Positions 1,323 through 60,086 of a stretch of DNA of 64,000 bases are shown here, piece after piece. Positions within the stretch are counted from its first letter, which is position 1. Each line of letters begins with the position of its first letter. Under the pieces are notes generated by a model. The model was not told where the DNA came from, did no database searches, and saw nothing but the letters and a program-made list of their open reading frames with translations. The position numbers and the translations under genes were made by a program. This DNA is from Modestobacter italicus (GTDB lineage Bacteria; Actinomycetota; Actinomycetes; Mycobacteriales; Geodermatophilaceae): assembly GCF_000306785.1 (NCBI RefSeq), contig NC_017955.1:1178001-1242000 (forward strand), read 5' to 3'.

Positions 1323-1382
1323 GAAGGACCTCGGTGCCCCCCACCCTCGCTGACGCTCGGCGCGGGCCCCTGCACCGAGGCC
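1323..1382 (+). repeat. Dispersed stem-loop repeat, copy 1
   Basis: A 60 bp element starting one base after the tatB stop. It opens with GAAGGACC and contains CCCCCCAC, a central CTCGC...GCTCG inverted part and GGGCCCCTGCA, then closes with GGCC. The outer stem CCTCGGTG (1329-1336) pairs perfectly with CACCGAGG (1373-1380). Related copies lie at 6556, 29296, 46644 (reversed) and 60028. Confidence 0.85.
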
Positions 1383-1390
1383 GCCCGACG

Positions 1391-1430
1391 ACAGCGGCCG
1401 GTCACCCCGGGAGGGGTGACCGGCCGCTGT
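1391..1430. terminator. Bidirectional terminator between tatB and mrp
   Basis: Perfect 18 bp inverted repeat (1391-1408 with 1413-1430) and a 4-base loop GGGA, lying between two convergent genes. The stem is GC-rich without a long T run, as usual for high-GC actinobacteria. Confidence 0.85.
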
Positions 1431-1443
1431 TCGTTCCGGGGGA

Positions 1444-2604
1444 CTACCGGCGGACCGGGGTGAGCCCCAGCGACATGCCGGACAGCCCGCGCTGGCGGAC
1501 GGCGAGGGAGTCCGCGATCGCGGCCAGCGCCTGGGCGGCCGGCGCCTCGGGCTCGGCCAGCACGATCGGCGCACCGGCGTCGCCGGCCTCGCGCAGCCGG
1601 GTGTCCAGCGGGATCTGACCGAGCAGCGGCACCCGGGCGCCGAGGGTCTTGGTCAGCGCGTCGGAGACGGCCTGGCCGCCACCGGAGCCGAAGACCTCCA
1701 TGCGCTGGCCGTCGGGGAGCTCCAGCCAGGACATGTTCTCCACGACCCCGACCACCTGCTGGTGGGTCTGGGTGGCGATGGCACCGGCCCGCTCGGCCAC
1801 CTCGGCGGCGGCCAGCTGCGGGGTGGTGACCACCAGGATCTCGGCGTTGGGCACCAGCTGGGCCACCGAGATCGCGACGTCCCCGGTGCCCGGGGGGAGG
1901 TCCATCAGCAGGACGTCGAGGTCGCCCCACCACACGTCGGCGAGGAACTGCTGCAGCGCGCGGTGCAGCATCGGCCCGCGCCAGACGACCGGGGTGTTGC
2001 CGGGGGTGAACATGCCGATCGAGATGACCTTCACGCCGTAGGACTGCGGCGGCATGATCATGTTCTCGACCTGGGTCGGCTTCTCGTCGACGCCGAGCAT
2101 GCGGGGCACCGAGTGGCCGTAGATGTCGGCGTCCACGACACCGACCGACAGGCCCTTCTTCGCCAGCGCGGCGGCCAGGTTCACCGTGACGCTGGACTTG
2201 CCGACGCCGCCCTTGCCGGAGGCCACCGCGTAGACGCGGGTCAGCGAGCCGGGCTGGGCGAACGGGATGACCGGCTCGGCGGCGTCCGTGCCGCGGACGG
2301 TCTTGCGCAGCTCGGTGCGCTGCTCGTCGCTCATCACGTCCAGGCCGACCTGGACGCTGGTGACGCCGGGGACCGCGCCCACGGCCTGGGTGACGCGGTT
2401 GGTGATCGTCTCGCGCATGGGGCAGCCGGCGACGGTCAGGTAGACCTCGATGCGCACGGCACCCGGGTCACCGCCGACGCCGATCTGCACGTCCTTGACC
2501 ATGCCCAGCTCGGGCAGCGGACGGTTGATCTCCGGGTCCTGGACGGTCGCCAGCGCCGCGTTCACGGCGTCGAGGGCCGGCGAACCGGTCAACGTGTCGG
2601 TCAT
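1444..2604 (-). CDS. mrp: Mrp/ApbC-family P-loop ATPase, iron-sulfur cluster carrier
   Basis: Cytosolic P-loop ATPase of the Mrp/NBP35 group that carries or inserts Fe-S clusters. The 386 residues contain an N-terminal MIP18/DUF59 domain (about 8-95, with the family Cys in VAGCPMRET), then the deviant Walker A SGKGGVGKSS and the Mrp signature region DLPPGTGDVAISVAQ. The start at 2604 (MTDTLTGSP) has AAGGAG upstream, and a TACAGT -10-like box lies further up. Oddity: the segment ENMSWLELPDGQRMEVFG sits where enterobacterial ApbC has a CxxC cluster ligand, and no cysteine is present. The gene converges on tatB through the terminator at 1391-1430. Confidence 0.93.
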   Translation of the reverse strand: MTDTLTGSPALDAVNAALATVQDPEINRPLPELGMVKDVQIGVGGDPGAVRIEVYLTVAGCPMRETITNRVTQAVGAVPGVTSVQVGLDVMSDEQRTELRKTVRGTDAAEPVIPFAQPGSLTRVYAVASGKGGVGKSSVTVNLAAALAKKGLSVGVVDADIYGHSVPRMLGVDEKPTQVENMIMPPQSYGVKVISIGMFTPGNTPVVWRGPMLHRALQQFLADVWWGDLDVLLMDLPPGTGDVAISVAQLVPNAEILVVTTPQLAAAEVAERAGAIATQTHQQVVGVVENMSWLELPDGQRMEVFGSGGGQAVSDALTKTLGARVPLLGQIPLDTRLREAGDAGAPIVLAEPEAPAAQALAAIADSLAVRQRGLSGMSLGLTPVRR

Positions 2605-2771
2605 GGGCGGATGTGTCTCCTTCGACGGGGAGCCTGCGCGCACCTGCTCGTGACCAGCGCGCGGGCGTCCTGCCACTGTACGGCGGCTGGGCGGGGTGCC
2701 TGCCCGGCCCGGGGTGTGACGCCCGGAACTGCCCGGGCCCCCGGCGCGCGAGGTCGGGGACGGCGGATCAC

Positions 2772-2777
2772 TAGGGT
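2772..2777 (+). promoter_or_regulatory. -10 box of a leaderless promoter for azlC
   Basis: TAGGGT ends 7 bases before the GTG at 2785 and no Shine-Dalgarno sequence is present. This is the usual actinobacterial leaderless geometry. Confidence 0.55.
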
Positions 2778-2784
2778 CCCGGGG

Positions 2785-3480
2785 GTGCCCCGGTCCGCCC
2801 GCTCCGCCACGCTCCGGGACGCCGTCGGGCTCGGCGTGGCCGTCGGGCTGTACGGGGTCGCCTTCGGCGCGGCCGCGGTGGGCGCCGGGCTGGACCCGTG
2901 GCAGGCGCTGGCGATGTCGCTGCTGATGTTCACCGGCGCCTCCCAGTTCGCGCTGGTCGGGGTGCTCGGCGCCGGCGGGGGAGCGCTCGCCGCGATCGGC
3001 AGCGCGCTGCTGCTGGGCACCCGCAACACCGTCTACGGCGTCCGGCTCGCGCCGATGCTGACCCCGCAGGGGCGGCTGCGCCGGGCCGGTGCCGCGCACT
3101 GGGTGATCGACGAGACGACGGCGATGGCGGTCGCCGCGCCCGACCGCGAGCTCGGCCGGCTCGCCTTCTGGGTCACCGGCGCCACCATCTACCTGGGCTG
3201 GAACGCCACCACGCTGGTCGGCGCGCTCGGTGCCGGCGCGCTGGGGGCCACGGCGCAGGCCGCGCTGGACTCCGTCGTCCCGGCGGCGTTCCTGGCGCTG
3301 CTGTGGCCGCGGCTGCGGCAGGGTGCCCCCGAGGCGGCGGTGCAGCGCCGGGTCGCCCTCGGTGGGGCGGTCGTGGCGCTGGCGCTGACGCCGTTCGTCC
3401 CGGCCGGTGTCCAGGTCGTGCTCGCCGTCGTCGCGGTGGTGCTCGCCGGGCGGCCGCGCACCCGGGAGGTGGCCCCGTGA
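2785..3480 (+). CDS. azlC: AzlC-family branched-chain amino acid exporter, large subunit
   Basis: Inner-membrane permease subunit that works with AzlD to export branched-chain amino acids or their analogues. The 231-residue protein is mostly hydrophobic. It has the family features GVAFGAAAVGAGL and the MFTGASQFALVG segment near the N-terminus, then ARNTVYG-like GTRNTVYGVRLAP and HWVIDETTAM in the middle. The GTG at 2785 was chosen because it is 7 bases after a TAGGGT -10 box and the first membrane segment follows about 18 residues later. Its stop overlaps the GTG of azlD by 4 bases (GTGA), so the two are translationally coupled. Confidence 0.9.
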   Translation: MPRSARSATLRDAVGLGVAVGLYGVAFGAAAVGAGLDPWQALAMSLLMFTGASQFALVGVLGAGGGALAAIGSALLLGTRNTVYGVRLAPMLTPQGRLRRAGAAHWVIDETTAMAVAAPDRELGRLAFWVTGATIYLGWNATTLVGALGAGALGATAQAALDSVVPAAFLALLWPRLRQGAPEAAVQRRVALGGAVVALALTPFVPAGVQVVLAVVAVVLAGRPRTREVAP

Positions 3481-3794
3481 GCGCCGGGATGCTGTGGACG
3501 GTCGTGCTGGTCGGCGCGGCCGGCTGCTACCTGCTGAAGTACGCCGGGCTGTCGGTGCCGGCGGCCTGGGTGCAGCACCCGGCGGTGGTCCGGGTGGTCG
3601 ACTTCGTGCCCGCGGCGCTGCTGGCCGCGCTGGTCGCGGTGCAGGCGGCGACGTCGGACGGCGCGCTGGTGGCCGACGGCCGGCTGGTCGGGCTGGCGGT
3701 GGCGGCGCTGGCCCTGGCGCTGCGGGCACCGTTCATCGTCGTCCTGCTGCTGGCCGGCGCCGCGGGCGCGCTGGTGCACGTCCTCACCGGCTGA
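3477..3794 (+). CDS. azlD: AzlD-family branched-chain amino acid exporter, small subunit
   Basis: Small integral membrane partner of AzlC, 105 residues and about four membrane segments. The AGCYLLKYAGLSVP opening and RVVDFVPAALLAALVAVQA segment match the AzlD family, as does the late RAPFIVVLLLAGAAGALV helix. The GTG start overlaps the azlC stop, the typical AzlCD arrangement. A long hairpin follows at once and separates it from the convergent DUF1003 gene. Confidence 0.9.
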   Translation: MSAGMLWTVVLVGAAGCYLLKYAGLSVPAAWVQHPAVVRVVDFVPAALLAALVAVQAATSDGALVADGRLVGLAVAALALALRAPFIVVLLLAGAAGALVHVLTG

Positions 3795-3810
3795 GCGCCG
3801 CGCTGCCCCG

Positions 3811-3869
3811 CCGAGTGGCAGCTGAGCGTGGCGGCGGGACCGGCTGGGCCACGCTCAGCTGTCACTCGG
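3811..3869. terminator. Long imperfect hairpin terminator between convergent genes
   Basis: CCGAGTGGCAGCTGAGCGTGG (3811 on) pairs with CCACGCTCAGCTGTCACTCGG (to 3869) with one mismatch. It overlaps the last codons of the DUF1003 gene. Its ends (CCGAGTG..CAGCTGAG) resemble the hairpin at 14686-14757. Confidence 0.75.
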
Positions 3870-4413
3870 CGCGGCTGGTGCCGACCGGGTCGCCCTGCTC
3901 GCGGCGCTTCTTCTTCTTCTTGCGCTCGCCGCCGTCGTCCGCGCCGTCGTCGGGCAGCAGCCGGTTCAGCTCGCCGCGGATGAAGTCGCGGGTGGCCAGC
4001 TCGCCGACGGCCACCCGCAGCGAGGCGAGCTCTCGGGCCAGGTACTCGGTGTCCGCCCGGGTCTGCGCGGCCCGGCTGCGGTCCTCCTCGGCCTGCACCC
4101 GGTCCCGGTCGGCCTGCCGGTTCTGCGCCAGCAGGATCAGCGGCGCGGCGTAGGCGGCCTGGGTGGAGAACGCCAGGTTCAGCAGGATGAACGGGTAGGG
4201 GTCCCACCGCAGGTTCACCGCGGCGACGTTGAGCACGATCCAGACGATCACGATGATCGTCTGGACGGCGAGGAACCGGCCGGTGCCCAGGAACCGGGCG
4301 ATCCCCTCGGCGAACCGGCCGACCGCGTCGGGGTCCAGCCGCAGGAAGTCGCCCAGCCCGCGGCTGCCCCGGGGCTGGTCGAGCCGCTGCTCGGGTCGGC
4401 GCTCGTCAGCCAC
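3862..4413 (-). CDS. DUF1003 membrane protein
   Basis: Conserved bacterial inner-membrane protein of unknown role, 183 residues. Two membrane segments are clear: one near FLAVQTIIVIVWIVLNV and one in the DUF1003 hallmark WDPYPFILLNLAFSTQAAYAAPLILLAQNRQADRDR. They are followed by a long charged, probably coiled-coil tail and a Lys-rich C-terminus. It overlaps the upstream MgtE-like gene by 8 bases and is probably co-transcribed with it. Such pairs near mrp occur in other actinobacteria, which suggests a shared ion- or envelope-related job, but no function can be read from the sequence. Confidence 0.88.
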   Translation of the reverse strand: MADERRPEQRLDQPRGSRGLGDFLRLDPDAVGRFAEGIARFLGTGRFLAVQTIIVIVWIVLNVAAVNLRWDPYPFILLNLAFSTQAAYAAPLILLAQNRQADRDRVQAEEDRSRAAQTRADTEYLARELASLRVAVGELATRDFIRGELNRLLPDDGADDGGERKKKKKRREQGDPVGTSRAE

Positions 4414-5644
4414 GTCGGGCCCGCTCGCGCCAGTCCTCGGGCAGCAGGTGGTCCAGCACGTCGTCCACGCTGACCGCCCCGACGAGCCGGCCCTGCGCGT
4501 CGACGACCGGGGCGGCCACCAGGTTGTAGGTGGCGAAGTAACGGGTCACCTCGGCCAGCGGGGCCTCCGGCCGGAGCGGCTCCAGGTCGTCCAGCGCACC
4601 GCTGACCAGGGTCGACGGTGGCTCGCGGAGCAGCCGCTGGATGTGCGCCAGCCCCAGGTAGCGCCCGGTCGGCGTGGCCGAGGGCGGCCGGCAGACGTAG
4701 ACCTGGCTGGCCAGCGCGGGGGTGATCTCCGGGGCGCGGACCCGGGCCAGCGCCTCGGCGATCGTCGCGTCGTGGCTGAGGATCACCGGCTCGCTGGTCA
4801 TGATCCCGCCGGCGGTGTCCTCGGAGTACTTGAGCAGCTGGCGGACCGGCTCGGCCTCGTCGGGCTCCATCAGCTCCAGCAGCCGGTCGCGGTCGACGTT
4901 GGACAGCTCGGCCAGCAGGTCCGCGGCGTCGTCGGGGTCCATCTCCTCCAGGACGTCGGCGGCCCGCCCCTCCTCGAGGGTGCCCAGGATGACGATCTGC
5001 TCGGCCTCGGGGAGCTCGCCGAGCACGTCGGCGAGCCGCTCGTCGCCCATCGCCTCCGCGACCTCGTGCCGCCGCTTGATCGGCAGCTCCTGCAGCGCGT
5101 GGGCCACGTCGGCGGCGTTCAGCTCGCGGTAGGTGGCGATCAGCGTCTCGGCGCTCTGCCCGGTCTGCGGCAGCGCCAGCCCGCTGACCTCGTCCCAGGC
5201 CAGCTGGCGGAGCTGGCCGCGGCGGCCGAGCCGGCCGGGCTCGGAGACGGCCAGCCGGGAGAGCACCCAGTCCCCGGTGCGGGTCTGCTCGATGGCGGCG
5301 TCGACCACGGTGGCGGCGCGGCCGGACTCGTTGATCGTCACCGACCGGTCCAGCAGTTCGCCGAGCACCAGGGTCTCGCCGACCCGCTGCTCGAAGCGCT
5401 TGAGGTTCAGCGTGCCCGACGACAGCATCACCGAGTTGGCGTCCACGCCGGTCACCCGGCCCATCGGGACGAAGATCCGGCGCCGCGCGACCACCTCGAC
5501 GATCAGGCCGAGCGCCCGCGGCGGTGCGGTGTCTACCCGCAGCGCGACCAGCACGTCGCGCACCTTGCCGACCCGGTCCCCGTTGGGGTCGAAGACGGTC
5601 AAGCCGGCCACCCGACTCACGTACGCCCTCGTCACCGTCGCCAC
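4406..5644 (-). CDS. Soluble MgtE N-domain plus CBS-pair protein
   Basis: The 412-residue protein contains the two regulatory modules of MgtE magnesium transporters but no membrane helices. It begins with a PRC-barrel-like part (about 1-90, AGLTVFDPNGDRVGKVRDVLV). A MgtE N-terminal helical domain follows (about 170-275, ELNAADVAHALQELP, GRAADVLEEMDPDDAADLLAEL), then a CBS pair (about 285-405, ending VSVDDVLDHLLPEDW). The MgtE pore is absent, so it is a sensor or regulator rather than a channel; Mg2+ or nucleotide binding is inferred from the CBS pair only. It is transcribed with the DUF1003 gene that overlaps its 3' end. Confidence 0.88.
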   Translation of the reverse strand: MATVTRAYVSRVAGLTVFDPNGDRVGKVRDVLVALRVDTAPPRALGLIVEVVARRRIFVPMGRVTGVDANSVMLSSGTLNLKRFEQRVGETLVLGELLDRSVTINESGRAATVVDAAIEQTRTGDWVLSRLAVSEPGRLGRRGQLRQLAWDEVSGLALPQTGQSAETLIATYRELNAADVAHALQELPIKRRHEVAEAMGDERLADVLGELPEAEQIVILGTLEEGRAADVLEEMDPDDAADLLAELSNVDRDRLLELMEPDEAEPVRQLLKYSEDTAGGIMTSEPVILSHDATIAEALARVRAPEITPALASQVYVCRPPSATPTGRYLGLAHIQRLLREPPSTLVSGALDDLEPLRPEAPLAEVTRYFATYNLVAAPVVDAQGRLVGAVSVDDVLDHLLPEDWRERARRG

Positions 5645-5656
5645 GGGGGCTGAGGC

Positions 5657-5662
5657 TACCGT
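5657..5662 (+). promoter_or_regulatory. -10 box of a leaderless promoter for the PhzF-like gene
   Basis: TACCGT ends 7 bases before the GTG at 5670. It lies in the short gap between divergent genes (upstream gene starts at 5644). Confidence 0.5.
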
Positions 5663-5669
5663 CGCCGTC

Positions 5670-6551
5670 GTGGTGGCCCCGGGAACCGACCAGCTCAGCT
5701 ACGAGATCGTGGACGTCTTCGCGCCCCGGCCGTTCTCCGGCAACCAGCTCGCGGTGGTGCTGGACGCCGGTGACCTGACCACCGGGCAGTGCCAGGCGCT
5801 GGCCGCCGAGTTCGGCTTCTCCGAGTCCACGTTCGTCAGCGCGCCCACCACCGGGGACGCCTCCTACCGGGTGCGGATCTTCACCCCGCGCACCGAGCTG
5901 CCCTTCGCCGGGCACCCCAGCGTGGGCACCGCGCACACCCTGGTCCGGCTCGGCCGGCTGCCCGCCGGCGTGGTCCGGCAGGAGTGCGGCGCCGGGGTGG
6001 TCGCGGTCGAGGTGGACGACGACGGTGCCCGGCTCTCCGGCGGGACAGTGTCGCTGCGACCCGGCCCGGACGCCGCGGAGCTGGCCGCCGCCGTGGGGCT
6101 GGGGGCCGACGACCTGACCGGCCGGCCCGCGCACCTGGTCGGCTGCGGCATCGACTTCGCCCAGCTGGAGGTGCGCCCCGGGGCGGCCGGGAAGGCCGAG
6201 GCGGACCCGGCGGCGCTGGCCGCGCTGCTGCCCGGCGTGCAGGGCGGCGTCTCGGTGCTCGAGCGGGACGCCGGCACGAGCTCCGGCACCGTCCGGGTGT
6301 TCGCCGCCGGGCTGGACTTCGCGGAGGACCCGGCCACCGGCTCCGCGGCGCTGGGCACCGGGATCTGGCTGGCCGCCGAGGGCCTGGCCGGCGAGGGCGT
6401 CACCGACTACCGGCTCGCCCAGGGCGCGGCGGTCGGCCGGCCCTCGGAGCTGGCCGGCAGGGTCACCGTCGCCGACGGCGCCGTCGTGGCGGTCAGCGTG
6501 GCCGGTGCGGTCCGCCCGATCGCCACCGGCACGGTCCGCGTGCCCCGATGA
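5670..6551 (+). CDS. PhzF-family isomerase/epimerase-like protein
   Basis: Member of the PhzF/diaminopimelate-epimerase fold family, 293 residues; the substrate is unknown. The N-terminal half has FAPRPFSGNQLAVVLDA and FGFSESTFV, with the Glu that acts in PhzF, then TPRTELPFAGHPSVGTAH. The C-terminal half has the GLDFAEDPATGSAALGTG phosphate/turn motif. The GTG at 5670 (or the next one at 5673) fits a leaderless mRNA with TACCGT upstream. The stop overlaps the possible ATG of the EamA-type gene. The family name is no evidence for phenazine synthesis: no other phz gene is near. Confidence 0.88.
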   Translation: MVAPGTDQLSYEIVDVFAPRPFSGNQLAVVLDAGDLTTGQCQALAAEFGFSESTFVSAPTTGDASYRVRIFTPRTELPFAGHPSVGTAHTLVRLGRLPAGVVRQECGAGVVAVEVDDDGARLSGGTVSLRPGPDAAELAAAVGLGADDLTGRPAHLVGCGIDFAQLEVRPGAAGKAEADPAALAALLPGVQGGVSVLERDAGTSSGTVRVFAAGLDFAEDPATGSAALGTGIWLAAEGLAGEGVTDYRLAQGAAVGRPSELAGRVTVADGAVVAVSVAGAVRPIATGTVRVPR

Positions 6552-7528
6552 CTGTGAAGGACCCCGCTGCTCCCCACCACTCGCAGGCTCGTGGCGGGCC
6601 CCTGCAGCAGGGCCGTGGGTCGGGACCGGCCTGGGCGATCCACCGGCCCGGCGGCCGGGACGTCGGGCTGATGGCCGTGGCGGTCGTCGGCGTCTCCTTC
6701 TCCGGTCCGCTCACCACGATGGTCGCCGCCTCCTTCCTGGCCATCGCGTTCTGGCGCAACGCGGCCGGCGCGGCGGTGCTGTTGCCGGTGCTGCTCGTCG
6801 GCGAGCGGTCGACCGTGCGCGCCCTGCGACCCCGCCAGCTGGGCAGCTCGGTCGTCGCCGGGCTGTTCCTCGCCGCGCACTTCGCCACCTGGCTGCCCAG
6901 CCTGTCGATGACGACGGTCGCCGCCTCCACGGCCCTGGTGACGACGACGCCGATCTGGACGTCGCTGGCCGCCCGCGCCGCCGGGGTGCAGCTGCCCGTG
7001 CAGGTGTGGTGGGGGCTGGCGCTGGCCGTGCTCGGCGCCGCGCTGATCGCCGGGGTCGACGTCACCGTCTCCTGGGAGGCGCTGGCCGGTGACGGGCTCG
7101 CGCTGCTCGGCGCGATCTGCGCCGGTGGCTACATGCTCGCCGGCGCGCGCGCCCGGGAGCACCTGAGCACCTCGGTCTACGCGGTCGCCTGCTACACGAC
7201 GTGCGCGGTCGCGCTGGCCGTCGCGGCGCTGGTGGCCGACGTGCCGCTGACCGGGTTCAGCGCCCGGGACTGGTGGCTGATCGCGGCGATCACCTTCTGC
7301 GCGCAGCTGCTCGGCCACACGCTGCTGAACCTGGTGCTCTCCTCGGTCGGCCCGACGGTCGTGGGGCTGGCCGTCCTGCTGGAGGTGCCCGGGGCGCTGG
7401 TCGTCGCCCTGGTGCTGCTGCAGCAGGCGCCGCCGCTGCTGGCGCTGCCCGGCATGGTCGCCGTCGTCATCGGGGTGGCCCTCGTCGTCCGGGCCGGGCG
7501 CCCCGCCCCGGAGGCCGAGCCGCTGTAG
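6548..7528 (+). CDS. EamA/DMT-superfamily transporter with a repeat-encoded N-terminus
   Basis: Drug/metabolite-type permease, 326 residues if translation starts at the ATG overlapping the phzF stop. Ten membrane helices in two EamA halves can be followed, from MAVAVVGVSFSGPL and FWRNAAGAAVLLPVLL through the second half AICAGGYMLAGARAREHLS to GMVAVVIGVALVV. With this start, codons for residues 4-22 come from the dispersed stem-loop repeat (6556-6614), and the first membrane helix begins only at about residue 40. An ATG at 6671 just before that helix would remove the repeat from the product. The start is unresolved; no Shine-Dalgarno is seen at 6548. Substrate unknown. Confidence 0.85.
   Translation: MTVKDPAAPHHSQARGGPLQQGRGSGPAWAIHRPGGRDVGLMAVAVVGVSFSGPLTTMVAASFLAIAFWRNAAGAAVLLPVLLVGERSTVRALRPRQLGSSVVAGLFLAAHFATWLPSLSMTTVAASTALVTTTPIWTSLAARAAGVQLPVQVWWGLALAVLGAALIAGVDVTVSWEALAGDGLALLGAICAGGYMLAGARAREHLSTSVYAVACYTTCAVALAVAALVADVPLTGFSARDWWLIAAITFCAQLLGHTLLNLVLSSVGPTVVGLAVLLEVPGALVVALVLLQQAPPLLALPGMVAVVIGVALVVRAGRPAPEAEPL
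6556..6614 (+). repeat. Dispersed stem-loop repeat, copy 2
   Basis: A 59 bp copy beginning with GAAGGACC 5 bases after the phzF stop. The outer stem is CCC-GCTGC pairing with GCAGC-GGG, different bases from copy 1 but still paired. It lies within the presumed phzF-eamA transcript. Confidence 0.82.
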
Positions 7529-7546
7529 CCGGGCGCGCCGGCTGGC

Positions 7547-7552
7547 TACCCT
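7547..7552 (+). promoter_or_regulatory. -10 box upstream of the citE-like gene
   Basis: TACCCT followed by a leader of about 27 bases containing CGGAGG before the GTG at 7586. This one is a leadered promoter. Confidence 0.45.
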
Positions 7553-7585
7553 CCGGCGACCAGCGTCGTCGACAGCGGAGGCACC

Positions 7586-8539
7586 GTGGCCGAGCTCCGA
7601 TCCCGTCGTTCCAACCTCGCCGTCCCGGGCAGCAACCCCCGGTTCCTGGAGAAGGCGAAGGGGCTGCCCGCCGACCAGGTGTTCCTGGACCTGGAGGACG
7701 CCTGCGCGCCGCTGGCCAAGCCCGCCGCGCGCAAGAACGTCGTCGCGGCGCTGAACGAGGGCGGCTGGGGGGAGAAGGTCCGCGCGGTCCGGGTCAACGA
7801 CTGGACGACGGAGTGGACCCACACCGACGTGATCGAGGTCGTCGGCGGGGCGGGCGCCGAGCTGGACTGCCTCGTGCTGCCCAAGGTCGCCGGCGCCGCG
7901 CAGGTGCAGGCGCTGGACCTGCTGCTCACCCAGGTGGAGAAGGCCTCCGGCCTGGAGGTCGGCCGGATCGGCATCGAGGCGCAGATCGAGACCGCGCAGG
8001 GCCTGGCCGACGTGCACGGCATCGCCGCCGCCAGCCCGCGGGTCGAGACGCTCGTCTTCGGCCCGGCCGACTTCATGGCCAGCATCGGCATGCGGTCGCT
8101 CGTGGTCGGCGGGCTGCACCCGGACTACCCCGGCGACCCGCTGCACTCCGTCCTGGTGCAGATCCTGGTGGCCGCGCGGGCCAACGGGGTGCAGGCCATC
8201 GACGGGCCGTTCCTGCAGGTGCGCGACGTGCCCGCGTTCACCGCGGCCGCCCGGCGGTCGGCGATGCTCGGCTTCGACGGCAAGTGGGTGCTGCACCCGG
8301 ACCAGATCGCGGCCGCCAACGAGGTCTACTCGCCGGCGCAGGAGGACTACGACCACGCCGAGCTGATCCTGGACGCCTACGCCTGGGCGACCTCGGACGC
8401 CGGCGGCCGGAAGGGCTCGGCGATGCTCGGCGACGAGATGATCGACGAGGCCAGCCGCAAGATGGCGCTGGTCGTCGCCGGCAAGGGCCGGGCCGCGGGG
8501 ATGTCCCGGACCTCGGCCTTCACCCCGCCCGGGGAGTGA
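7586..8539 (+). CDS. HpcH/HpaI aldolase - CitE-like CoA-ester lyase
   Basis: TIM-barrel lyase of the citrate lyase beta / malyl-CoA lyase family, 317 residues. It is expected to cleave or form a beta-hydroxyacyl-CoA with Mg2+ help. Family features are NLAVPGSNPRFLEKA, FLDLEDACAP (acidic residues near the metal site), RVNDWTTEW, IEAQIETAQGL and FGPADFMASIG. A long C-terminal part with GFDGKWVLHPDQI follows. Length and sequence style are closer to malyl-CoA or beta-methylmalyl-CoA lyases than to short CitE proteins, but the substrate is inference. The GTG start has CGGAGG 5-6 bases upstream. It runs towards the DUF4190 gene with only 3 bases between the stops. Confidence 0.88.
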   Translation: MAELRSRRSNLAVPGSNPRFLEKAKGLPADQVFLDLEDACAPLAKPAARKNVVAALNEGGWGEKVRAVRVNDWTTEWTHTDVIEVVGGAGAELDCLVLPKVAGAAQVQALDLLLTQVEKASGLEVGRIGIEAQIETAQGLADVHGIAAASPRVETLVFGPADFMASIGMRSLVVGGLHPDYPGDPLHSVLVQILVAARANGVQAIDGPFLQVRDVPAFTAAARRSAMLGFDGKWVLHPDQIAAANEVYSPAQEDYDHAELILDAYAWATSDAGGRKGSAMLGDEMIDEASRKMALVVAGKGRAAGMSRTSAFTPPGE

Positions 8540-29087: not shown

Positions 29088-29294
29088 ATGCGCGCGTACG
29101 CGTACCTGCTGGCTGCACTTGCGGCCCTGACCGCCCGGCTGCGGGAGGACGACCCCGAGCGGGGCGACGTCCCGGGCTGGGTGATGGTCACGGTGATGAC
29201 GGCGGCCCTGGTGCTGGCCATCCTGGTGCCGTTCCGGACGGCGATCGTGGACGCGGTCTCCCGGGCGCTGGAGTCCGTCACGAGTGCCGGCTGA
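29088..29294 (+). CDS. Small Flp-like pilin
   Basis: A 68-residue protein. A basic N-terminal leader (MRAYAYLLAALAALTARLREDDPERGDVPG) is followed by one hydrophobic segment (WVMVTVMTAALVLAILV) and a short C-terminus (FRTAIVDAVSRALESVTSAG). The position between tadC and the TadE-like genes and the small size fit the structural pilin. A processing site near the Gly before WVMV is likely but not proven; no prepilin peptidase gene is in the window. GAGGAGG stands 7 bases before the ATG. Confidence 0.75.
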   Translation: MRAYAYLLAALAALTARLREDDPERGDVPGWVMVTVMTAALVLAILVPFRTAIVDAVSRALESVTSAG

Positions 29295-29748
29295 GGAAGG
29301 ACCCCTCTGCCCCCCACCACTCGCGAGCTCGCGGCGGGCCCCTGCACAGGGGCCGGGGGAGAGCGTCTCCGAGCGGGGCAGTGCGGTCGTCGACTTCGTG
29401 CTGGTCGGCGCCCTGATCGTGGCGCTGTTGCTCGCGGTGCTGCAGATCGCGGTCTACGTGCACCTGCGCAACGTCGTCGTGGCCAGCGCCCAGGAGGGTG
29501 CTCGCTACGCGGCGGACGCCGACGTGCCGACCGCGGCCGGCGCCGGCCGGACGCTGGAGGTGGTCGGGCAGGCGACCTCCGCCGGCACGGCGGCCGGCCT
29601 GAGCTGCACGTCGGTGCAGGAGGTCGACGGCAGCGGGCTGACCCTGGTCGTCGTCCGGTGCACCGGTGCGGTGCCGAGCATCTTCGCCGCGCTGGGGGAG
29701 CTGCTGCCGCTGCAGGCCACCGGGCGTGCGGTGGAGGAGGCGCCGTGA
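29284..29748 (+). CDS. TadE-like pseudopilin whose first codons lie in a dispersed repeat
   Basis: A 154-residue protein. The TadE-like core starts SERGSAVVDFVLVGALIVALLLAVLQIAVYVHLRNVVVASAQEGARYAA (about 29-77), then a soluble domain with two Cys (LSCTSV, VRCTG). The only start codon ahead of this core is the GTG at 29284, which overlaps the pilin stop. With it, residues 5-24 are encoded by the stem-loop repeat (29296-29354) and are Pro-rich, unlike the rest. No in-frame ATG, GTG, TTG or CTG lies between the repeat and the core, so the repeat is apparently translated. Coupled to the next gene by a 4-base overlap. Confidence 0.82.
   Translation: MPAEEGPLCPPPLASSRRAPAQGPGESVSERGSAVVDFVLVGALIVALLLAVLQIAVYVHLRNVVVASAQEGARYAADADVPTAAGAGRTLEVVGQATSAGTAAGLSCTSVQEVDGSGLTLVVVRCTGAVPSIFAALGELLPLQATGRAVEEAP
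29296..29354 (+). repeat. Dispersed stem-loop repeat, copy 3
   Basis: A 59 bp copy starting one base after the pilin stop. The outer stem is CCCCT-C-TGC pairing with GCA-C-AGGGG, bases different from copies 1 and 2. It lies inside the tad operon and inside the reading frame of the TadE-like gene. Confidence 0.85.
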
Positions 29749-45507: not shown

Positions 45508-46620
45508 GTGGCTGCTGACTTCTCCGTCGTCCTGGACGAGCTCGACACGACCCTGAAGTCCATCGAGGCCGTGATGCGGGTCGACGACCTGCGCCGCGAG
45601 GTCGCCGAACTCGAGCAGAAGGCCGCCGCGCCCGACCTCTGGAACGACGTCGAGGCCGCCCAGGCGCTCACCTCCCGGCTCTCCTACCTGCAGGGCGACC
45701 TGCGCCGGGTGGAGGAGCTGCGCAGCCGGCTCGACGACGTCGGGCTGCTGCACGAGATGGCCGCGGAGGAGGGCGACGAGGCCACCACCGCCGAGACCGA
45801 GCGCGAGCTGCAGAGCATCCGCACCGTGCTCGACGAGCTGGAGGTCCGCACGCTGCTCTCCGGTGAGTACGACGCCCGCGAGGCGCTGGTGACCATCCGC
45901 TCGGAGGCCGGGGGCGTCGACGCCGCCGACTTCGCCGAGATGCTCATGCGGATGTACCTGCGCTGGGCCGAGCGGCACAAGTACCCGACCGAGGTCTACG
46001 ACGTCTCCTACGCCGAGGAGGCCGGGATCAAGTCGGCCACCTTCGCCGTCAAGCAGCCCTACGCCTACGGCACCCTCTCCGTCGAGCAGGGCACCCACCG
46101 GCTGGTGCGGATCTCGCCCTTCGACAACCAGGGCCGCCGGCAGACCTCCTTCGCCGGGGTCGAGGTGCTGCCCGTCGTCGAGCAGACCGACCACGTCGAC
46201 ATCCCGGAGAACGAGATCCGGGTCGACGTCTTCCGCTCCTCCGGTCCCGGTGGGCAGAGCGTGAACACCACCGACTCCGCCGTCCGGATGACCCACATCC
46301 CGACCGGCATCGTCGTCTCCTGCCAGAACGAGAAGTCGCAGATCCAGAACCGGGCCGCCGCGCTCCGGGTGCTGCAGGCCCGGCTGCTCGTCGTCCGGCA
46401 GGCCGAGCAGCGGGCCGAGATGGACGCGCTCAAGGGGGAGGGGAGCAGCTGGGGCAACCAGATGCGCTCCTACGTCCTGCACCCGTACCAGATGGTCAAG
46501 GACCTGCGGACCGAGACCGAGAGCGGCAACCCCTCGAACGTCCTGGACGGCGACATCGACGCCTTCATCGAGGCCGGCATCCGCTGGCGCCGCCAGCAGG
46601 AGAACGCCGAGCTCAACTGA
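45508..46620 (+). CDS. prfB: Peptide chain release factor 2
   Basis: RF2, 370 residues, releases the peptide at UGA and UAA codons. The anticodon-like SPF is at 203-205 ([11 protein letters not shown]) and the catalytic GGQ at 248-250 ([10 protein letters not shown]). The N-terminal helical domain has [13 protein letters not shown]. The frame is continuous: there is no programmed +1 frameshift with an internal UGA as in E. coli prfB. Leaderless start after TACCCT. It heads the conserved prfB-ftsE-ftsX-smpB order, although a reversed repeat copy and a separate promoter stand between it and ftsE. Confidence 0.96.
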
Positions 46621-46643: not shown

Positions 46644-46701
46644 GGCCTCGGTGCAGGGGCCCGCGGCGAGCTTGCGAGTCGTGGGGGGCAGCGAGGTCCT
46701 T
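46644..46701 (-). repeat. Dispersed stem-loop repeat, copy 4 (reversed)
   Basis: A 58 bp copy in the opposite orientation between prfB and ftsE. Read on the minus strand it has AAGGACCTCG, CTGCCCCCCAC, CTCGC, AGCTCG, GGGCCCCTGCA and ends CGAGGCC. The outer stem is CCTCG-C-TGC with GCA-C-CGAGG. It is the only copy not starting right after a stop codon in the same orientation. Confidence 0.83.
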
Positions 46702-46764
46702 ATACCGCGCGCGATCGTGGCGTGGCGCGCCGGTCAGACGGACCAGGATGCGGGTCGGCCCAGG

Positions 46765-53605: not shown

Positions 53606-53660
53606 CGCCGAGAGCGCGCTCCCGGTGACCGTGGGGGCCACCGGGAGCGCGCTCTCGGCG
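53606..53660. terminator. Bidirectional terminator
   Basis: A perfect 22 bp stem (53606-53627 with 53639-53660) and an 11-base loop, between the convergent GNAT and MFS genes. Confidence 0.88.
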
Positions 53661-53673
53661 TACGGGCCGGTGG

Positions 53674-55176: not shown

Positions 55177-55316
55177 GGCAGAGCTGTCCTTCCTGCGCGC
55201 AGCGCAGTGGAGAAGGGGAGGGAGGCGTGCGGGCACGGACGGCCGGCGGCGGTGCGCGGTCGTCGATCGGTGGTGCGGGGAGGCCGGCGGTCAGCGCCGG
55301 TCGGGGGTGGAGCGGG

Positions 55317-55946
55317 TCAGCTGATGGGCTGGGCGAGTCCTGCGCCGGCCCAGCGCAGGCAGTCCCGGACCGAGTCCACGAGCTGGTCGAAGGTGTCGTC
55401 GGGATCCCATGCCTCGACCGCGGTGGTGAACGCGGCCATGGCGGTGTTGAAGACCAACGTGGTCCTCAGGTCGTCGCCGTCGGGGAGACGGCGGGCGATC
55501 CAGGCCTTCAGGTCGGGCGCGAAGCTGTCGCAGGTGCCCCTGGCCGTGTGGATCAGCCAGGGAGCCTGCTCGATCACCCGCTTCTGCACGGGCAGCCACT
55601 CGGGCAGCAGCTTCGCCATGTCGACGAAGAGGTCGGTCAGCGCCTCCCACAGCGGAGCGTCGTTCGAGTCGTCCTCCAGGAGCGCGCGCCACTGCGCGAG
55701 CTCCTCGGGGTCGAGGTCGAAGGCGACGGCCTCCTTGCTGGGGAAGTAGCTGAAGAAGGTGGTGCGGGAGACACCGGCCTCGGCGGCGATGTCCTCGACA
55801 CTGACGGCGTCGAAGCCGCGCTCGCTGATCAGGCGCAGCGCGGTGGAGCGGATGGTGCGCCAGGCGGCGAGCTTCTTGCGCTCTCGCAGCCCCATGACGG
55901 CGTTCACGGCGCAGCGTGGCGAACTCGCTGCCTTCGCTCTCCCCAT
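55317..55946 (-). CDS. TetR-family regulator of the MFS gene
   Basis: A 209-residue regulator if it starts at 55946. The HTH reads TALRLISERGFDAVSVEDIAAEAGVSRTTFFSYFPSKEAVAFD (about 35-78), and the C-terminus has the LPEWLPVQKRVIEQAPWL helix of this subgroup. The ATG at 55946 lies 9 bases after a TACGGT -10 box, so a leaderless start is likely; an ATG at 55895 would shorten the N-terminus. It probably represses itself and the downstream exporter. Confidence 0.85.
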   Translation of the reverse strand: MGRAKAASSPRCAVNAVMGLRERKKLAAWRTIRSTALRLISERGFDAVSVEDIAAEAGVSRTTFFSYFPSKEAVAFDLDPEELAQWRALLEDDSNDAPLWEALTDLFVDMAKLLPEWLPVQKRVIEQAPWLIHTARGTCDSFAPDLKAWIARRLPDGDDLRTTLVFNTAMAAFTTAVEAWDPDDTFDQLVDSVRDCLRWAGAGLAQPIS

Positions 55947-55955
55947 CACGCACTC

Positions 55956-55985
55956 ACCGTAGACCGAAAGCTGAACTGAGTACAA
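55956..55985 (-). promoter_or_regulatory. Promoter of the TetR gene
   Basis: On the minus strand TTGTAC (55985-55980), 18 bases, TACGGT (55961-55956), then 9 bases to the ATG at 55946. An inverted repeat GAACT-N7-AGTTC (55973-55989) overlaps the -35 box and is a candidate operator. Confidence 0.5.
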
Positions 55986-56026
55986 GTTCTTACTGCGTCA
56001 AGTTCTGGCACAGTTCACCTCCCGGC

Positions 56027-56032
56027 TACGGT
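56027..56032 (+). promoter_or_regulatory. -10 box of a leaderless promoter for the SCO6745-like gene
   Basis: TACGGT ends 6 bases before the ATG at 56039. Confidence 0.5.
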
Positions 56033-56038
56033 CTGCCC

Positions 56039-56908
56039 ATGGTCAGCGCCGATCAGCTCTCTCCTTCCCTGCGGGTCGTGGCCCGAACCCACCGCCGGCT
56101 GGAGCCGCTGCACTCGCACGTGTACTTCGCCCCCGAGACCGACGAGCACCTGACGGCGCTCGGCATCCGGCCGGGCCGGATGGTCTACTTCGCCGGCCGC
56201 GCGGCGGCCATGGGCGCGGTCGGCCCCGGCGTGGTGACGGCGACCTTCGGCAACTTCGCGCCGGCGATCGTGGCCCGGCACGTGCCGCGGGCCTGGACGC
56301 TCGCGTCCCCGGAGCAGGTGCTCGCCGCCCGGGCCGCGGCGGCGCGGGCCTCGCTGACGCGGCTGCTCGCCGACCCGCCGGCCGAGGACGTCGCCGAGCT
56401 CGCCCAGCTGCTGCGCGAGGCGTGCACCGTGCTCACCCCCGAGGGGCGGCCGCTCTACGCCGGGCACGCCGACCAGCCGTGGCCGGAGGACCCGCTGCTG
56501 CAGGTGTGGCACGGGGTCACCCTGCTGCGCGAGCACCGCGGCGACGGGCACGTGCTCACCCTCGTGCGGCACGGGCTCAGCGGCCTGGAGGCGCTGGTCA
56601 CCCACACGCTCACCGGCCGCGGCTTCACCGAGCAGTCCGCCCGGACCACCCGCGGCTGGTCGGACGAGGAGTGGGCGGCGGCGGTCGCCGGGCTGACCGA
56701 CCGCGGCCTGGTCGCCGACGGCGGGCTCACCGCGGACGGCGTCGCGCTGCGCGCGGCGGTCGAGCAGGAGACCGACGAGCTGTCCGCCGCGCCCTTCGTG
56801 CACCTGGGGGCCGAGCGCACCGAGCGGGTGGCCGACCTCGGCGGCCGGCTCGCCGCCCGGCTGGTCGCCAACGGCGCCTACCCGGCCGGGGTCTTCGCCG
56901 CCCGCTGA
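56039..56908 (+). CDS. SCO6745-family helical protein
   Basis: A 289-residue protein of the actinobacterial family typified by Streptomyces SCO6745. The opening ARTHRRLEPLHSHVYFAPETDEHLTALGI, the GRMVYFAGRAAAMGAVGPGVVTATFGNFAP segment and W(T/S)LASPEQVLAARAAA are typical. A late winged-helix-like stretch (SARTTRGWSDEEWAAAVAGLTDRGLVADGGLTADG) may bind nucleic acid. Function unknown. Leaderless start from TACGGT, divergent from the TetR gene. Confidence 0.82.
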   Translation: MVSADQLSPSLRVVARTHRRLEPLHSHVYFAPETDEHLTALGIRPGRMVYFAGRAAAMGAVGPGVVTATFGNFAPAIVARHVPRAWTLASPEQVLAARAAAARASLTRLLADPPAEDVAELAQLLREACTVLTPEGRPLYAGHADQPWPEDPLLQVWHGVTLLREHRGDGHVLTLVRHGLSGLEALVTHTLTGRGFTEQSARTTRGWSDEEWAAAVAGLTDRGLVADGGLTADGVALRAAVEQETDELSAAPFVHLGAERTERVADLGGRLAARLVANGAYPAGVFAAR

Positions 56909-56960
56909 GCCCGGTCGGGCAGACGCGCCGGAGGAGGTCGACGCCGACGGCGTCCCTCCC

Positions 56961-56966
56961 TATGGT
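56961..56966 (+). promoter_or_regulatory. -10 box of the SLC13 gene promoter
   Basis: TATGGT followed by a leader of about 22 bases with GGAGGGG before the ATG at 56996. Confidence 0.45.
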
Positions 56967-56995
56967 CTGGGTCACGTTCCACCCCTGGAGGGGCG

Positions 56996-58618
56996 ATGAC
57001 CACCACCGAGCGCGGTCCCCAGCAGCCGGCGCGGACGGACGTCGACGCGGCCTTCATCGGCTCGGCGACCTATCGCAGCCTGGGGGAGCAGACCCTCAGC
57101 CCGGCCGAGGAGCGGTTCGAGAAGGGGCGCCGGACGGTCGGCCTGTTCCTCGCACCCGCGGTCACCGTGGTCGTGGCGCTGCTGCCGCTGGACCTGCCCC
57201 GTCAGCAGCACCTGCTCGCCGCGGTGCTGCTCGGCGTCATCGTCCTGTGGATCACCGAGCCGGTGCCGATCCCGATCGGTGGGCTCATCGGCATCGGGGC
57301 GATCGTCGTCCTGGGCGTCGTCCCGGCCGACGAGGCGGTGGCGCCCTTCGGCTCGACGACGGTGTTCACCTTCATCGGCGCGTTCATCCTCGCCCAGGCG
57401 ATGCTCCGGCACGGTCTGGCCCGGCGGTTCGCGATGTTCGTGCTGTCGCTGCGCTGGGTCGGGACGTCCACCTACCGGGTGGTCATCGCGTTCGGTGCGA
57501 TCACCGCCCTGCTGTCGGCCTTCGTGTCGAACACCGCGACGGTGGCGATGCTGCTGCCGACGGCGATCGGCATCCTGTCGGTGATCGCGAAGCTGCTGCA
57601 GAGCAAGGGGCTGGTCGAGCAGGACTTCGACCCGCTGCGGCTGCGCGTGGGCGTGGCCCTGATGCTGATGCTCGCCTACGGCGCCAGCGTGGGCGGTCTG
57701 CTCACCCCGGTCGGCACACCCCCGAACCTGATCGGCCGGGGGCTGATCGAGGAGGCCACCGGGGAGCGGATCAGCTTCCTCGACTGGATGCTGATGGCCC
57801 TGCCGATCTGCCTGCTGATGTTCTGCGCGCTGGCCTTCGTGCTGCTGCTGCTCAACCGCCCGGAGATCCGGCGGATCGAGGGCGTCAACGAGTACGTCCG
57901 CGCCGAGCGGGCCGAGCTCGGCCGCTTCTCCGTCGCCGAGCGGAACACCCTGATCGCCTTCGGGCTGACGGTCTTCTTCTGGGTCTTCCCGGGGATCATC
58001 GCGCTGGTCGCCGGGACGGACTCGAGCCTCTACGACACGGTCAGCGAGCGGCTGAACGAGGGCATCGTGGCCGTCCTCGGCGCCTCGTTGCTCTTCGTCC
58101 TGCCGACGAACTGGAAGGCGCGCGAGTTCACCCTGGTCTGGAGCGACGCGGCCAGGATCGACTGGGGCACCGTGCTGCTGTTCGGCACCGGGATCGTCTT
58201 CGGGTCACTGCTCGACGACACCGGCCTGGCGCTGACCATCGGCGAGGGGTCGGCCGACCTGCTCGGACTCACGAGCACGTTCGCGATCACGGTCTTCGCG
58301 GTGCTGCTGGCGATCCTCATCTCGGAGACGACGAGCAACACCGCGTCGGCCGCCGTGGTGGTGCCGATCATCATCCCGGTCGCGGTCGCGGCGGGGGTCA
58401 ACCCGTTCGTCCCGGCGTTGGCGGCCACCTTCGCGGCGTCGTTCGGCTTCATGCTGCCGGTCTCCACCCCGCAGAACGCGATCGTCTACGGCTCGGGCGT
58501 CGTCCCGATCACCAAGATGATCCGCAGCGGGTTCTCCTTCGACGTCCTGGGAGCGCTGCTCATCGTGGTCCTCCTGCCGGTGATGGTCGACCTGGTGCTG
58601 GGCAACCCGGGCGGCTGA
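56996..58618 (+). CDS. SLC13/DASS-family anion permease
   Basis: A 540-residue permease for dicarboxylates, sulfate or a similar anion, coupled to Na+. Two SNT motifs that coordinate Na+ and substrate are present: SNTATV in the first repeat and SNTASA in the second. The family signatures GGLLTPVGTPPNLIG and FGFMLPVSTPQNAIVYG follow them. About 11-13 helices and a polar N-terminus of 45 residues. GGAGGGG stands just before the ATG. Stand-alone gene; specificity unknown. Confidence 0.88.
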   Translation: MTTTERGPQQPARTDVDAAFIGSATYRSLGEQTLSPAEERFEKGRRTVGLFLAPAVTVVVALLPLDLPRQQHLLAAVLLGVIVLWITEPVPIPIGGLIGIGAIVVLGVVPADEAVAPFGSTTVFTFIGAFILAQAMLRHGLARRFAMFVLSLRWVGTSTYRVVIAFGAITALLSAFVSNTATVAMLLPTAIGILSVIAKLLQSKGLVEQDFDPLRLRVGVALMLMLAYGASVGGLLTPVGTPPNLIGRGLIEEATGERISFLDWMLMALPICLLMFCALAFVLLLLNRPEIRRIEGVNEYVRAERAELGRFSVAERNTLIAFGLTVFFWVFPGIIALVAGTDSSLYDTVSERLNEGIVAVLGASLLFVLPTNWKAREFTLVWSDAARIDWGTVLLFGTGIVFGSLLDDTGLALTIGEGSADLLGLTSTFAITVFAVLLAILISETTSNTASAAVVVPIIIPVAVAAGVNPFVPALAATFAASFGFMLPVSTPQNAIVYGSGVVPITKMIRSGFSFDVLGALLIVVLLPVMVDLVLGNPGG

Positions 58619-58771
58619 GCCGCGGACACCGGCTGTTCACCCGGGTGGGGGTGCCCACCCCTCGCCGGGCGTGTCACGATGGTCGACGGACCCGCGGCGC
58701 TCCGCCGGGGCATCCAGGGACGTCGGGAGGTGACCGGGCAGATGCGTGCCGAGCCCCCCAGTCACAGTCCC

Positions 58772-58838
58772 GAGGTCCCCTCCTGCTGACGCGCCCGGTC
58801 GACGCCCGACCCGCGGCGGTGCTGCGTGCGGGGACCTC
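58772..58838 (+). other. Long-range inverted repeat in the corA leader
   Basis: GAGGTCCCC (58772-58780) can pair with GGGGACCTC (58830-58838). They enclose about 49 GC-rich bases and end 39 bases before the corA start. It is a candidate structured 5' leader, but it does not match the M-box pattern that I know. Confidence 0.4.
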
Positions 58839-58877
58839 TCCTGCGTCCCCGTCCCCGCGTCCTCCGGGAGTCCCGTC

Positions 58878-60026
58878 GTGTCCGACCGCCGTCTCAGCAC
58901 GCCCCGTGCCGCCCTCTCCACCCTCACCCGCCGGCCGCGCCCGGCCGCCGTCCCGAGGTCGTCCGACGGGTCGGCTGCGCAGCTGACCCCGGTGGACCGC
59001 CCCGCGCGGATGGTGGACAACGCGGTCTACGCCGGCGGCCGGCGGATCGCCACACCCGGGTCACCCGCCGAGAGCCATGAGTGGCTGACCGAGGGCTACG
59101 AGGACCGGATGGTGTGGCTGGGCCTCTACCGCCCGGACCCCGCTGCGCTCGGTGAGCTTGCCGAGCAGTACGACCTGCCCGAGCTGGCGGTCGAGGACGC
59201 CATCAAGGCGCACCAGCGGCCGAAGTTCGAACGCTACGGCGACACGCTCTTCGTCGTCCTCAAGGCCGCCCGCTACCTGGACGCCGCCGAGGAGGTCGAC
59301 TTCGGCGAGCTGCACCTGTTCCTCGGCCGGGACTTCGTGATCACCGTCCGGCACAGCGAGTCGCCGGACCTGTCCCGGGTGCGCCGCCGGCTGGAGAGCG
59401 ACCCGGAGCTGCTGGCGCGGGGGAGCGAGGCGGTGCTCTACGCGATCCTGGACGCCGTCGTCGACGGGTACGCGCCGGTCGTCGCCGGCCTGGAGAACGA
59501 CATCGACGAGATCGAGGTCGAGGTCTTCCGCGGTGACCCGCAGGTCTCCCGGCGCATCTACGAGCTGTCCCAGGAGGTCGTGGACTTCCAGCGGGCCGCC
59601 CAGCCGCTGACCGGCATCCTGGCCGCGATCACCGCCGGGTTCGAGAAGTACGGCGTCGACGAGGAGCTGCGCAGCTACCTGCGGGACGTCGCCGACCACG
59701 TGACGTCGGTGACCGAGCGGGTGGAGGGCTTCCGGCTGCAGCTGCGCGACATCCTCACCGTGAACGCCACGCTGGTCGCGCAGCGGCAGAACGAGGAGAT
59801 CCGCGAGCTGACCGAGACGTCGCTGGCGCAGGGCGAGGAGGTCAAGAAGATCTCCGCGTGGGCCGCGATCCTGTTCGCCCCGACCCTGGTGGGCACCGTC
59901 TACGGGATGAACTTCACCCACATGCCCGAGCTCGACTGGCGGCTGGGGTACCCGCTCGCGCTGGTGCTGATGCTGATGGTCAGCGTCGTGCTGTACCTGG
60001 TGTTCAAGCGGCGCGACTGGATCTGA
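58878..60026 (+). CDS. corA: CorA-family magnesium/cobalt channel
   Basis: A 382-residue divalent-cation channel. A soluble alpha/beta N-terminus (RPKFERYGDTLFVVLKAARYL, FLGRDFVITVRHS) leads into long helices. Two C-terminal membrane helices follow, with the signature YGMNF at 342-346 (GMN filter) and the loop THMPEL. The GTG at 58878 is taken because GGGAG lies 7 bases upstream; a GTG at 58746 would add 44 residues of unrelated Pro-rich sequence across the inverted repeat. The gene ends one base before repeat copy 5. Confidence 0.92.
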   Translation: MSDRRLSTPRAALSTLTRRPRPAAVPRSSDGSAAQLTPVDRPARMVDNAVYAGGRRIATPGSPAESHEWLTEGYEDRMVWLGLYRPDPAALGELAEQYDLPELAVEDAIKAHQRPKFERYGDTLFVVLKAARYLDAAEEVDFGELHLFLGRDFVITVRHSESPDLSRVRRRLESDPELLARGSEAVLYAILDAVVDGYAPVVAGLENDIDEIEVEVFRGDPQVSRRIYELSQEVVDFQRAAQPLTGILAAITAGFEKYGVDEELRSYLRDVADHVTSVTERVEGFRLQLRDILTVNATLVAQRQNEEIRELTETSLAQGEEVKKISAWAAILFAPTLVGTVYGMNFTHMPELDWRLGYPLALVLMLMVSVVLYLVFKRRDWI

Positions 60027-60027
60027 C

Positions 60028-60086
60028 GAAGGACCCCCCCCCCCCCCGACGCTCGCAAGCTCGCGTCGGGACCCTGCAGCGGGGCC
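60028..60086 (+). repeat. Dispersed stem-loop repeat, copy 5, with a C14 tract
   Basis: A 59 bp copy starting one base after the corA stop. The 5' half has become a run of 14 C (60034-60047); CGACGCTCGCAAGCTCGCG and the end GCAGCGGGGCC are kept. Four C of the run can still pair with GGGG at the 3' end. It lies 55 bases before the tmRNA gene. Confidence 0.8.

Follow-up and report, generated by a model that had tools for sequence, protein, structure and literature searches.

Integron attC sites are folded bottom strands in which structure is kept rather than sequence, and they lie after the stop codon of a gene. Mycobacterial interspersed repetitive units (MIRU) have DTGA as their target. A review places MIRU insertions at start codons and describes in them an open reading frame (ORF) that is coupled to the gene (PMC12548453). 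Our analysis concerns a 64,000-nucleotide stretch of the Modestobacter italicus genome (hereafter the window; positions 1,178,001-1,242,000 of NC_017955.1), in which five copies of a hairpin repeat of about 59 bp begin at positions 1323, 6556, 29296, 46644 and 60028. Repetitive extragenic palindromic (REP) repeats as a rule depend on an identified enzyme, the REP-associated tyrosine transposase (RAYT; PMC2817692, PMC3733652), which is a Y1 transposase of the IS200/IS605 type. We conclude, with a probability of roughly 0.6, that the repeat is a non-coding, non-autonomous mobile element, similar in behavior to REP and MIRU, which lies at the 3′ ends of genes and has a strand-specific fold.

The repeat resembles the REP/RAYT system in its short hairpin, its high copy number (more than 100 here), its strand polarity and its position near or overlapping stop codons. 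It differs in its length, in having two stems with an internal loop and in the compensating variation of its arms; furthermore, 76 Geodermatophilaceae genomes yielded no match to a Y1 transposase and no GTAG or CGTC head was seen. Since neither the transposase nor the head motif was found, we have not filed it under REP/RAYT. An ATGA overlap filled so that TGA stands on both sides (one site, L290) and tandem partial units may recall MIRU, whereas placing by the stop codon and a conserved folded strand set the repeat apart from MIRU as that review describes them. The likeness to attC would be one of working only, namely a folded bottom strand, structure over sequence and a place past the stop codon; the copies here are scattered beside ordinary chromosomal genes and no cassette arrays were noticed. 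Like an intrinsic terminator, the repeat is a GC-rich hairpin past stop codons, but it has shared sequence motifs, lacks a U-run and has its stable strand antisense to the gene. An Rfam scan of the window gave the transfer-messenger RNA (tmRNA) as the sole match above the gathering score and no family for the repeat. No description of it was present in the literature searched, whose coverage left out most subscription papers, and a text search with the loop sequence returned only a paper on E. coli zeaxanthin.

A large repeat family

The M. italicus genome (G000) is a single contig of 5,575,517 bases. A covariance model (R1) was built from 26 copies that included the five in the window, so that these match by construction (E 1.2e-16 to 3.6e-13; the next-best match in the window had E 0.35). 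In the whole genome the model gave at least 148 matches, and 146 of these score more than 45 bits; as only 150 candidates were scored, the family size is a floor of at least about 145 copies. One additional copy was seen at 41.7 bits in the flanking loci (L280:5171-5229). Simple patterns led to the same family: the left end matched 105 times compared with 31 for the pattern read backwards, and the inner hairpin alone matched 81 times compared with none for its reversed control. This excess indicates a repeat family and not chance. A stricter first pattern, made by hand, recovered one of the five window copies, with 0.12 matches expected by chance. The sequence-only reading of the window had listed five copies with common blocks, and the sequence and the model matches bear this out; they confirm that the five belong to one family that is far larger than first noted. 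By a rough estimate, about 145 copies among an assumed 5,000 genes would place the repeat at the 3′ ends of about 3% of the genes.

Contexts were analyzed for 142 distinct copies. Flanks were taken at all but seven of the 148 model places, and a partial copy (L291:3046) and two duplicates were removed before counting.

The strand that folds

The sequence-only reading had folded the GAAGGACC strand, but the complement is better paired and has the lower RNA folding energy in 142/142 copies. The predicted fold on the complement begins with an outer stem (about 11 pairs), leaves AGGGN unpaired on the 5′ side, continues with an inner stem (8 pairs) and a tandem G·A/A·G mismatch, and closes in a GC-NN-GC tip; the folded strand ends in GGUCCUUC. 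Recurrent A·C and C·T mismatches on the GAAGGACC strand become G·U (or G·T) and tandem G·A/A·G on the complement. Selection on structure had been proposed from the window copies and is upheld here. A MAFFT alignment of 26 copies, made without reference to the structure, had 95.1% of its cells paired (83.7% after shuffling) and a covariation of 0.319 (0.118 after shuffling). None of 500 shuffles and no slid version equaled the paired share or the covariation, while 7 of 500 shuffles equaled the number of pair types. When 118 distinct rows were fitted to the model, 99.0% of cells were paired and covariation was 0.366.

The variable positions give the same picture. In 73 copies aligned in register, 98.7% of cells at 12 variable pairs were standard, compared with 76.3% on average and 79.3% at most in 500 deals of the 3′ arms to other copies. 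No two of these copies are identical and they contain 27 distinct outer-arm hexamers. On the complement, all pairs except the G·A ones together show 163 G·T against 5 A·C; the count was made in 73 of the 76 copies of 59 nt, other lengths being omitted for register and three rows filtered. It becomes 40 to 5 once two mostly-G·T positions are excluded, a figure we give because some single-sequence DNA folds bulge the T that is paired as G·T at position 2. Compensatory change is thus strong and the constraint is specific to the complement strand.

The sense (GAAGGACC) strand also folds, at about -31 kcal/mol. By RNA energies, the complement is again the better folder in 131 of 133 copies of relatives (taken from 109 of the 118 loci listed by the pattern scan), and DNA folding of the five window copies favors it in all five with a smallest margin of 0.2 kcal/mol. 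The z-scores of the DNA folds are unremarkable, from -2.3 to -0.45 on the folding strand, with -3.1 for the other strand of the first copy. Given these small margins and z-scores, our claim about the strand rests on covariation and not on energy. As G·U and G·T look alike, RNA of the folded strand and single-stranded DNA are not separable.

The right half with a following tail forms a unit of 45-46 nt that occurs in minisatellite-like tandem (L089:1897-2021, 2.7 copies; L132, minus strand, 3072-3118; L387:9-99), the number of units varying between loci. In a subfamily identified by eye (L263:3040-3096, L281:2974-3030, L283:2997-3053 and L301:2989-3045), GGG/CCC/GGG has jointly become GAG/CTC/GAG, that is, the unpaired GGG changes together with the inner-stem CCC and GGG. 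This joint change hints that the unpaired purines make an additional contact, or that the copies descend from a common ancestor.

Position at stop codons

A stop triplet stands 3 to 8 bases ahead of GGACC on the GAAGGACC strand in 120 of the 142 copies, compared with 12, 7, 4 and 7 in control windows of equal size further upstream. The main spacings are TGA at -7 (TGA-N-GAAGGACC; 74 copies) and TGA at -4 (25 copies). In relatives the main spacings are unchanged, and 115 of 133 copies have a stop triplet at -8 to -3 (controls 6, 6, 9 and 8). A called gene end lies within -4 to +8 bases in 116/142 copies, the gene caller missing some genes, and a called ORF overlaps or crosses the element in 13. 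The neighboring genes look ordinary and unrelated to one another, and by similarity clusters none of them recurs as an autonomous partner would.

Orthologous junctions

Junction states at orthologous sites were assigned by eye from the sequences. At site 60028, where flanks are 96% identical, the element is present in M. italicus and G006 has an empty site (ATCTGA-GGACGCC-GGTGGAACA). The element is also absent from G007 and G010; copies with other arms are present in G009 and G012 and a degraded one in G016. At site 29296, two of 21 genomes have an intact copy (M. italicus and G006), three a decayed one (G007, G022 and G004) and 16 are empty. At site L290 (5,021,025 in M. italicus), G007 has a bare ATGA stop/start overlap, while in G006 and G020 the element lies between TGA and a second ATGA, and in G009 and G012 a newer element sits within what is left of an older one. 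At site L239, 15 of the 21 genomes with both flanks have no recognizable element, three have a forward copy (M. italicus, G007 and G019) and three have one turned round (G014, G012 and G004), which there abuts the stop codon of the convergent gene on the other side. Sites are therefore polymorphic and decaying, with nested copies and inversion seen by eye. The suggestion of a small non-autonomous mobile element, made from the window alone, agrees with these filled, empty and decayed sites.

Among 21 orthologous element pairs between M. italicus and its relatives, 18 have the same orientation and three are reversed. The mean identity of the 18 is 0.78, compared with 0.74 for random pairs, and where flanks are 93% identical, the element identity is 0.93 for one pair and 0.71 for a second. 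Positions are thus used again, often by a different copy. We infer that the element is mobile rather than only repeatedly deleted, and that gene ends would be its target instead of reflecting placement by later selection alone.

Other shared motifs fill the L239 junction in other genomes (L309-L337), for example GCGACCCTCCGGGCCGCACCGCGGCC (L313/L314) and GGTTGAGCCGC (L316/L323). By eye, these motifs suggest that there may be further repeat families at gene ends.

Distribution

Of 59 genomes searched, matches occurred in 32 of the 35 from Geodermatophilaceae (M. italicus included) and in none of the 24 that represent other families of the order. In this search G025 had 5 matches, and G027, G029 and G031 had none. 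Scanning named genomes with a pattern gave at least 118 stretches, and all 80 with titles shown are from Geodermatophilaceae (Geodermatophilus, Blastococcus, Modestobacter, Klenkia, Trujillonella and one other family member). Among the matches listed, the best titled match of an M. italicus locus was 92.7%, to Modestobacter excelsi. In a class-wide sample the model matched two of 197 genomes, M. italicus and G111 (once, E 1.9e-5), the latter from another family outside this order. The inner-hairpin pattern matched six of 396 genomes of a phylum sample (M. italicus, G111 with 24 matches, and four others with one each), and the reversed pattern gave two single matches in two other genomes.

G111 contains a second, related hairpin family, TCCCCACC...CCCTAACCTCGCAAGCTCGGCCAGGGAACCCTGC (L419, L420, L426-L442). 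The outer sequences of its main type differ from those of M. italicus, while the plan is common to both (a GGG-N(N)-CCCTG block and a CTCGC-NN-GCTCG tip). At three of the ten loci that were read, the G111 element comes directly after a called stop codon (TAG or TAA), and the complement folds better in 9 of 11 examples. Ten viral contigs contain the inner-hairpin pattern; the covariance model has no match at E 0.1 in any of them, and we rejected viral carriage.

Search for a mobilizing enzyme

Reverse transcriptase was considered as a mobilizer. The RVT_1 domain is present in one M. italicus gene and in 21 of 33 sampled genomes (Modestobacter and other families of the order). It is missing from G004 and G014 (100% and 99% complete), both rich in copies, and a reverse transcriptase is therefore not required at present. 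The M. italicus gene (G000:C1:1091468-1092118, minus strand; a 484-amino-acid frame) has counterparts in several of the Modestobacter genomes sampled. The search for a gene that travels with the element covered 850 predicted neighbors, some counted twice where loci overlap. By eye, none of the 15 largest similarity clusters is transposase-like; the largest consists of ABC ATPases.

Interpretation

Several results weigh against a mobile element. No mobilizing enzyme was found among Y1_Tnp, RVT_1 and the neighbor-gene clusters examined, and no target duplication that is both clean and constant is seen at the compared junctions. At 60028, the filled site has the element in place of about seven bases of the empty one, and G010, counted among the empty genomes at 29296, may carry a deletion remnant; in each of these cases loss of an older copy could account for the difference. 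Presence is also partly inherited. On a tree of 22 genomes the element is present in 5/21 at 29296, 9/19 at L290 and 4/18 at 60028, with 3, 4 and 3 changes, respectively, compared with shuffled means of 4.6, 6.6 and 3.8, which would fit function in place as well. Six of the 21 orthologous pairs reach or exceed the 90th percentile of random pairs, with the other 15 below, and the most alike (L222/L138, 0.97; L190/L177, 0.93) are likewise compatible with function in place. Finally, a tail like GTTCCAGCACGTCACC follows GGCC in only 38 of 272 copies (by pattern), which leaves the right boundary of the element unsettled.

Nevertheless, we favor a mobile element. The repeat would insert at the 3′ end of a gene, or displace an older copy there, so as to abut the stop codon. 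Its working form would most likely be a single strand, the complement of the GAAGGACC strand, and the fold may be kept because a mobilizing enzyme, or an intermediate of RNA or single-stranded DNA, needs it. Because the fold is kept equally well where that strand should not be transcribed, the folded complement is the probable substrate of mobilization. A broader proposal, which we put forward tentatively and regard as doubtful, is a new class of hairpin mobile elements that occurs in two or more lineages of Actinomycetes (Geodermatophilaceae and that of G111), with a non-Y1 enzyme acting on the folded strand to deliver copies to stop codons, possibly by way of an RNA intermediate or a termination-coupled process.

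The main rival is a host 3′-end signal, either a terminator or an antisense-blocking hairpin that would end transcripts at the gene edge, maintained by selection and changing in a compensatory way. It would explain placement at stop codons in M. italicus and its relatives and the 21 pairs that share a junction between genomes, six of them unusually alike. By eye, some relatives without the element have another hairpin in its place (L140, L168 and L173). The eight bases after the stem of the folded strand contain 3-4 T in 115/142 copies, compared with 0-1 T after the stem of the sense strand in 101/142. However, the strand with the stable fold runs antisense to the gene, and a stable hairpin with a U-run on the sense strand is not what the copies show, since T is scarce there and the sense fold is the worse one in every copy. 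Mean fold energy is also alike in tandem (-39.3, n=63) and convergent contexts (-38.7, n=51), and about equal in ORF contexts. Where the context is clear, the other neighbor is on the same strand in 63 copies and convergent in 51; this convergent share (51/114, 45%) is near that of gene ends in the window (28/66, 42%), though above that of element-centered loci (250/729, 34%), and a preference for convergent genes is not clear. Copies are also present in operon-like runs and at an ATGA overlap, and decayed copies at 29296. A host signal thus accounts for location and for the well-kept orthologues but leaves unexplained why the antisense strand is the one that folds, why some sites are operon-like and why copies turn over, and we consider it unlikely. 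The RNA processing or attenuation signal offered by the sequence-only reading loses ground for similar reasons, as the folding strand is antisense to the preceding gene and the fold is indifferent to context.

Covariation could also arise by mutation, through template switching between the arms together with gene conversion between copies, with neither mobility nor function. The whole-arm differences at L290/L171, between flanks that are 93% identical, resemble such swaps, and the tandem right-half units would suit them. Template switching leaves unexplained the excess of G·T over A·C, the conserved G·A/A·G mismatches, the newly occupied sites and the placement at stop codons, and we regard this account as quite improbable. 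A REP family mobilized by RAYT is more improbable still, since Y1_Tnp (PF01797) has no match in any of 76 family genomes, M. italicus included, while five of 14 control genomes were positive, the ends of the repeat are GAAGGACC and GGTCCTTC and not GTAG or CGTC (alignments by eye), and the account would need either a RAYT too diverged for PF01797 or a family-wide loss; the earlier label "REP-like" fits the behavior of the repeat but not the enzyme.

The sequence-only reading had proposed a covariance-model search of the genome and relatives, a count of sites relative to stop codons, a search for a RAYT-type transposase and a comparison of orthologous junctions. The first gave many more copies, the second placed 120/142 next to a stop triplet, the third found none in 76 family genomes and the fourth showed sites with and without the element. 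It had also named two outcomes as refuting, a lack of further copies and of an excess of paired substitutions; neither occurred.

Taken together, the repeat is a large and evidently mobile family with a strand-specific fold, at the stop codons of unrelated genes, for which the usual transposase was not found. Identifying its enzyme could yield a recombination or retro-insertion system that is new and whose target is highly unusual. The copies, spread over many genomes, are also a natural set of structural variants.

The copies in the window

The five copies and their neighbors are given below, with the folding strand in brackets for each copy.

929-1321, plus strand: TatA/B-like gene; TGA at 1319-1321, one base ahead of copy 1
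1323-1382 (minus): copy 1, between the TatA/B-like gene and a convergent gene
1444-2604, minus strand: Mrp/NUBPL-type ATPase gene, the convergent neighbor of copy 1
5133-6551, plus strand: PhzF-like gene, found by Pfam and missed by the gene caller; TGA at 6549-6551
6556-6614 (minus): copy 2, four bases past that TGA
6671-7528, plus strand: EamA gene, the next gene past copy 2
29296-29354 (minus): copy 3, one base past TGA 29292-29294 of a 68-amino-acid frame, in a same-strand gene run
29398-29748: TadE-like gene, next after copy 3; its 22.8 bits narrowly miss the Pfam cut-off (22.9)
45508-46620, plus strand: peptide-chain-release-factor gene with PCRF and RF-1 domains
46644-46702 (plus): copy 4, reversed, 23 bases past the stop of the release-factor gene
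60028-60086 (minus): copy 5, one base past TGA 60024-60026 of a CorA-like gene
60142-60517, plus strand: tmRNA gene, downstream of copy 5

Four copies had been placed 1-6 bases past a stop codon, and the distances are indeed 1, 4, 1 and 1 (stops ending at 1321, 6551, 29294 and 60026). Copy 4 is not so placed and, read in its own orientation, adjoins no called gene end. The frame ahead of copy 3 has no Pfam match. That the outer stem differs in sequence yet stays paired is correct as regards compensatory change, but three window copies contain mismatches: by eye, the outer stem of copy 5 is damaged, with two G·G mismatches at a G run opposite CGCTG, and copies 3 and 4 have one G·G mismatch each. 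After copy 1, positions 1384-1440 contain a perfect 15-bp hairpin with a T-containing tail (by eye), which is probably an ordinary terminator between the two convergent genes.

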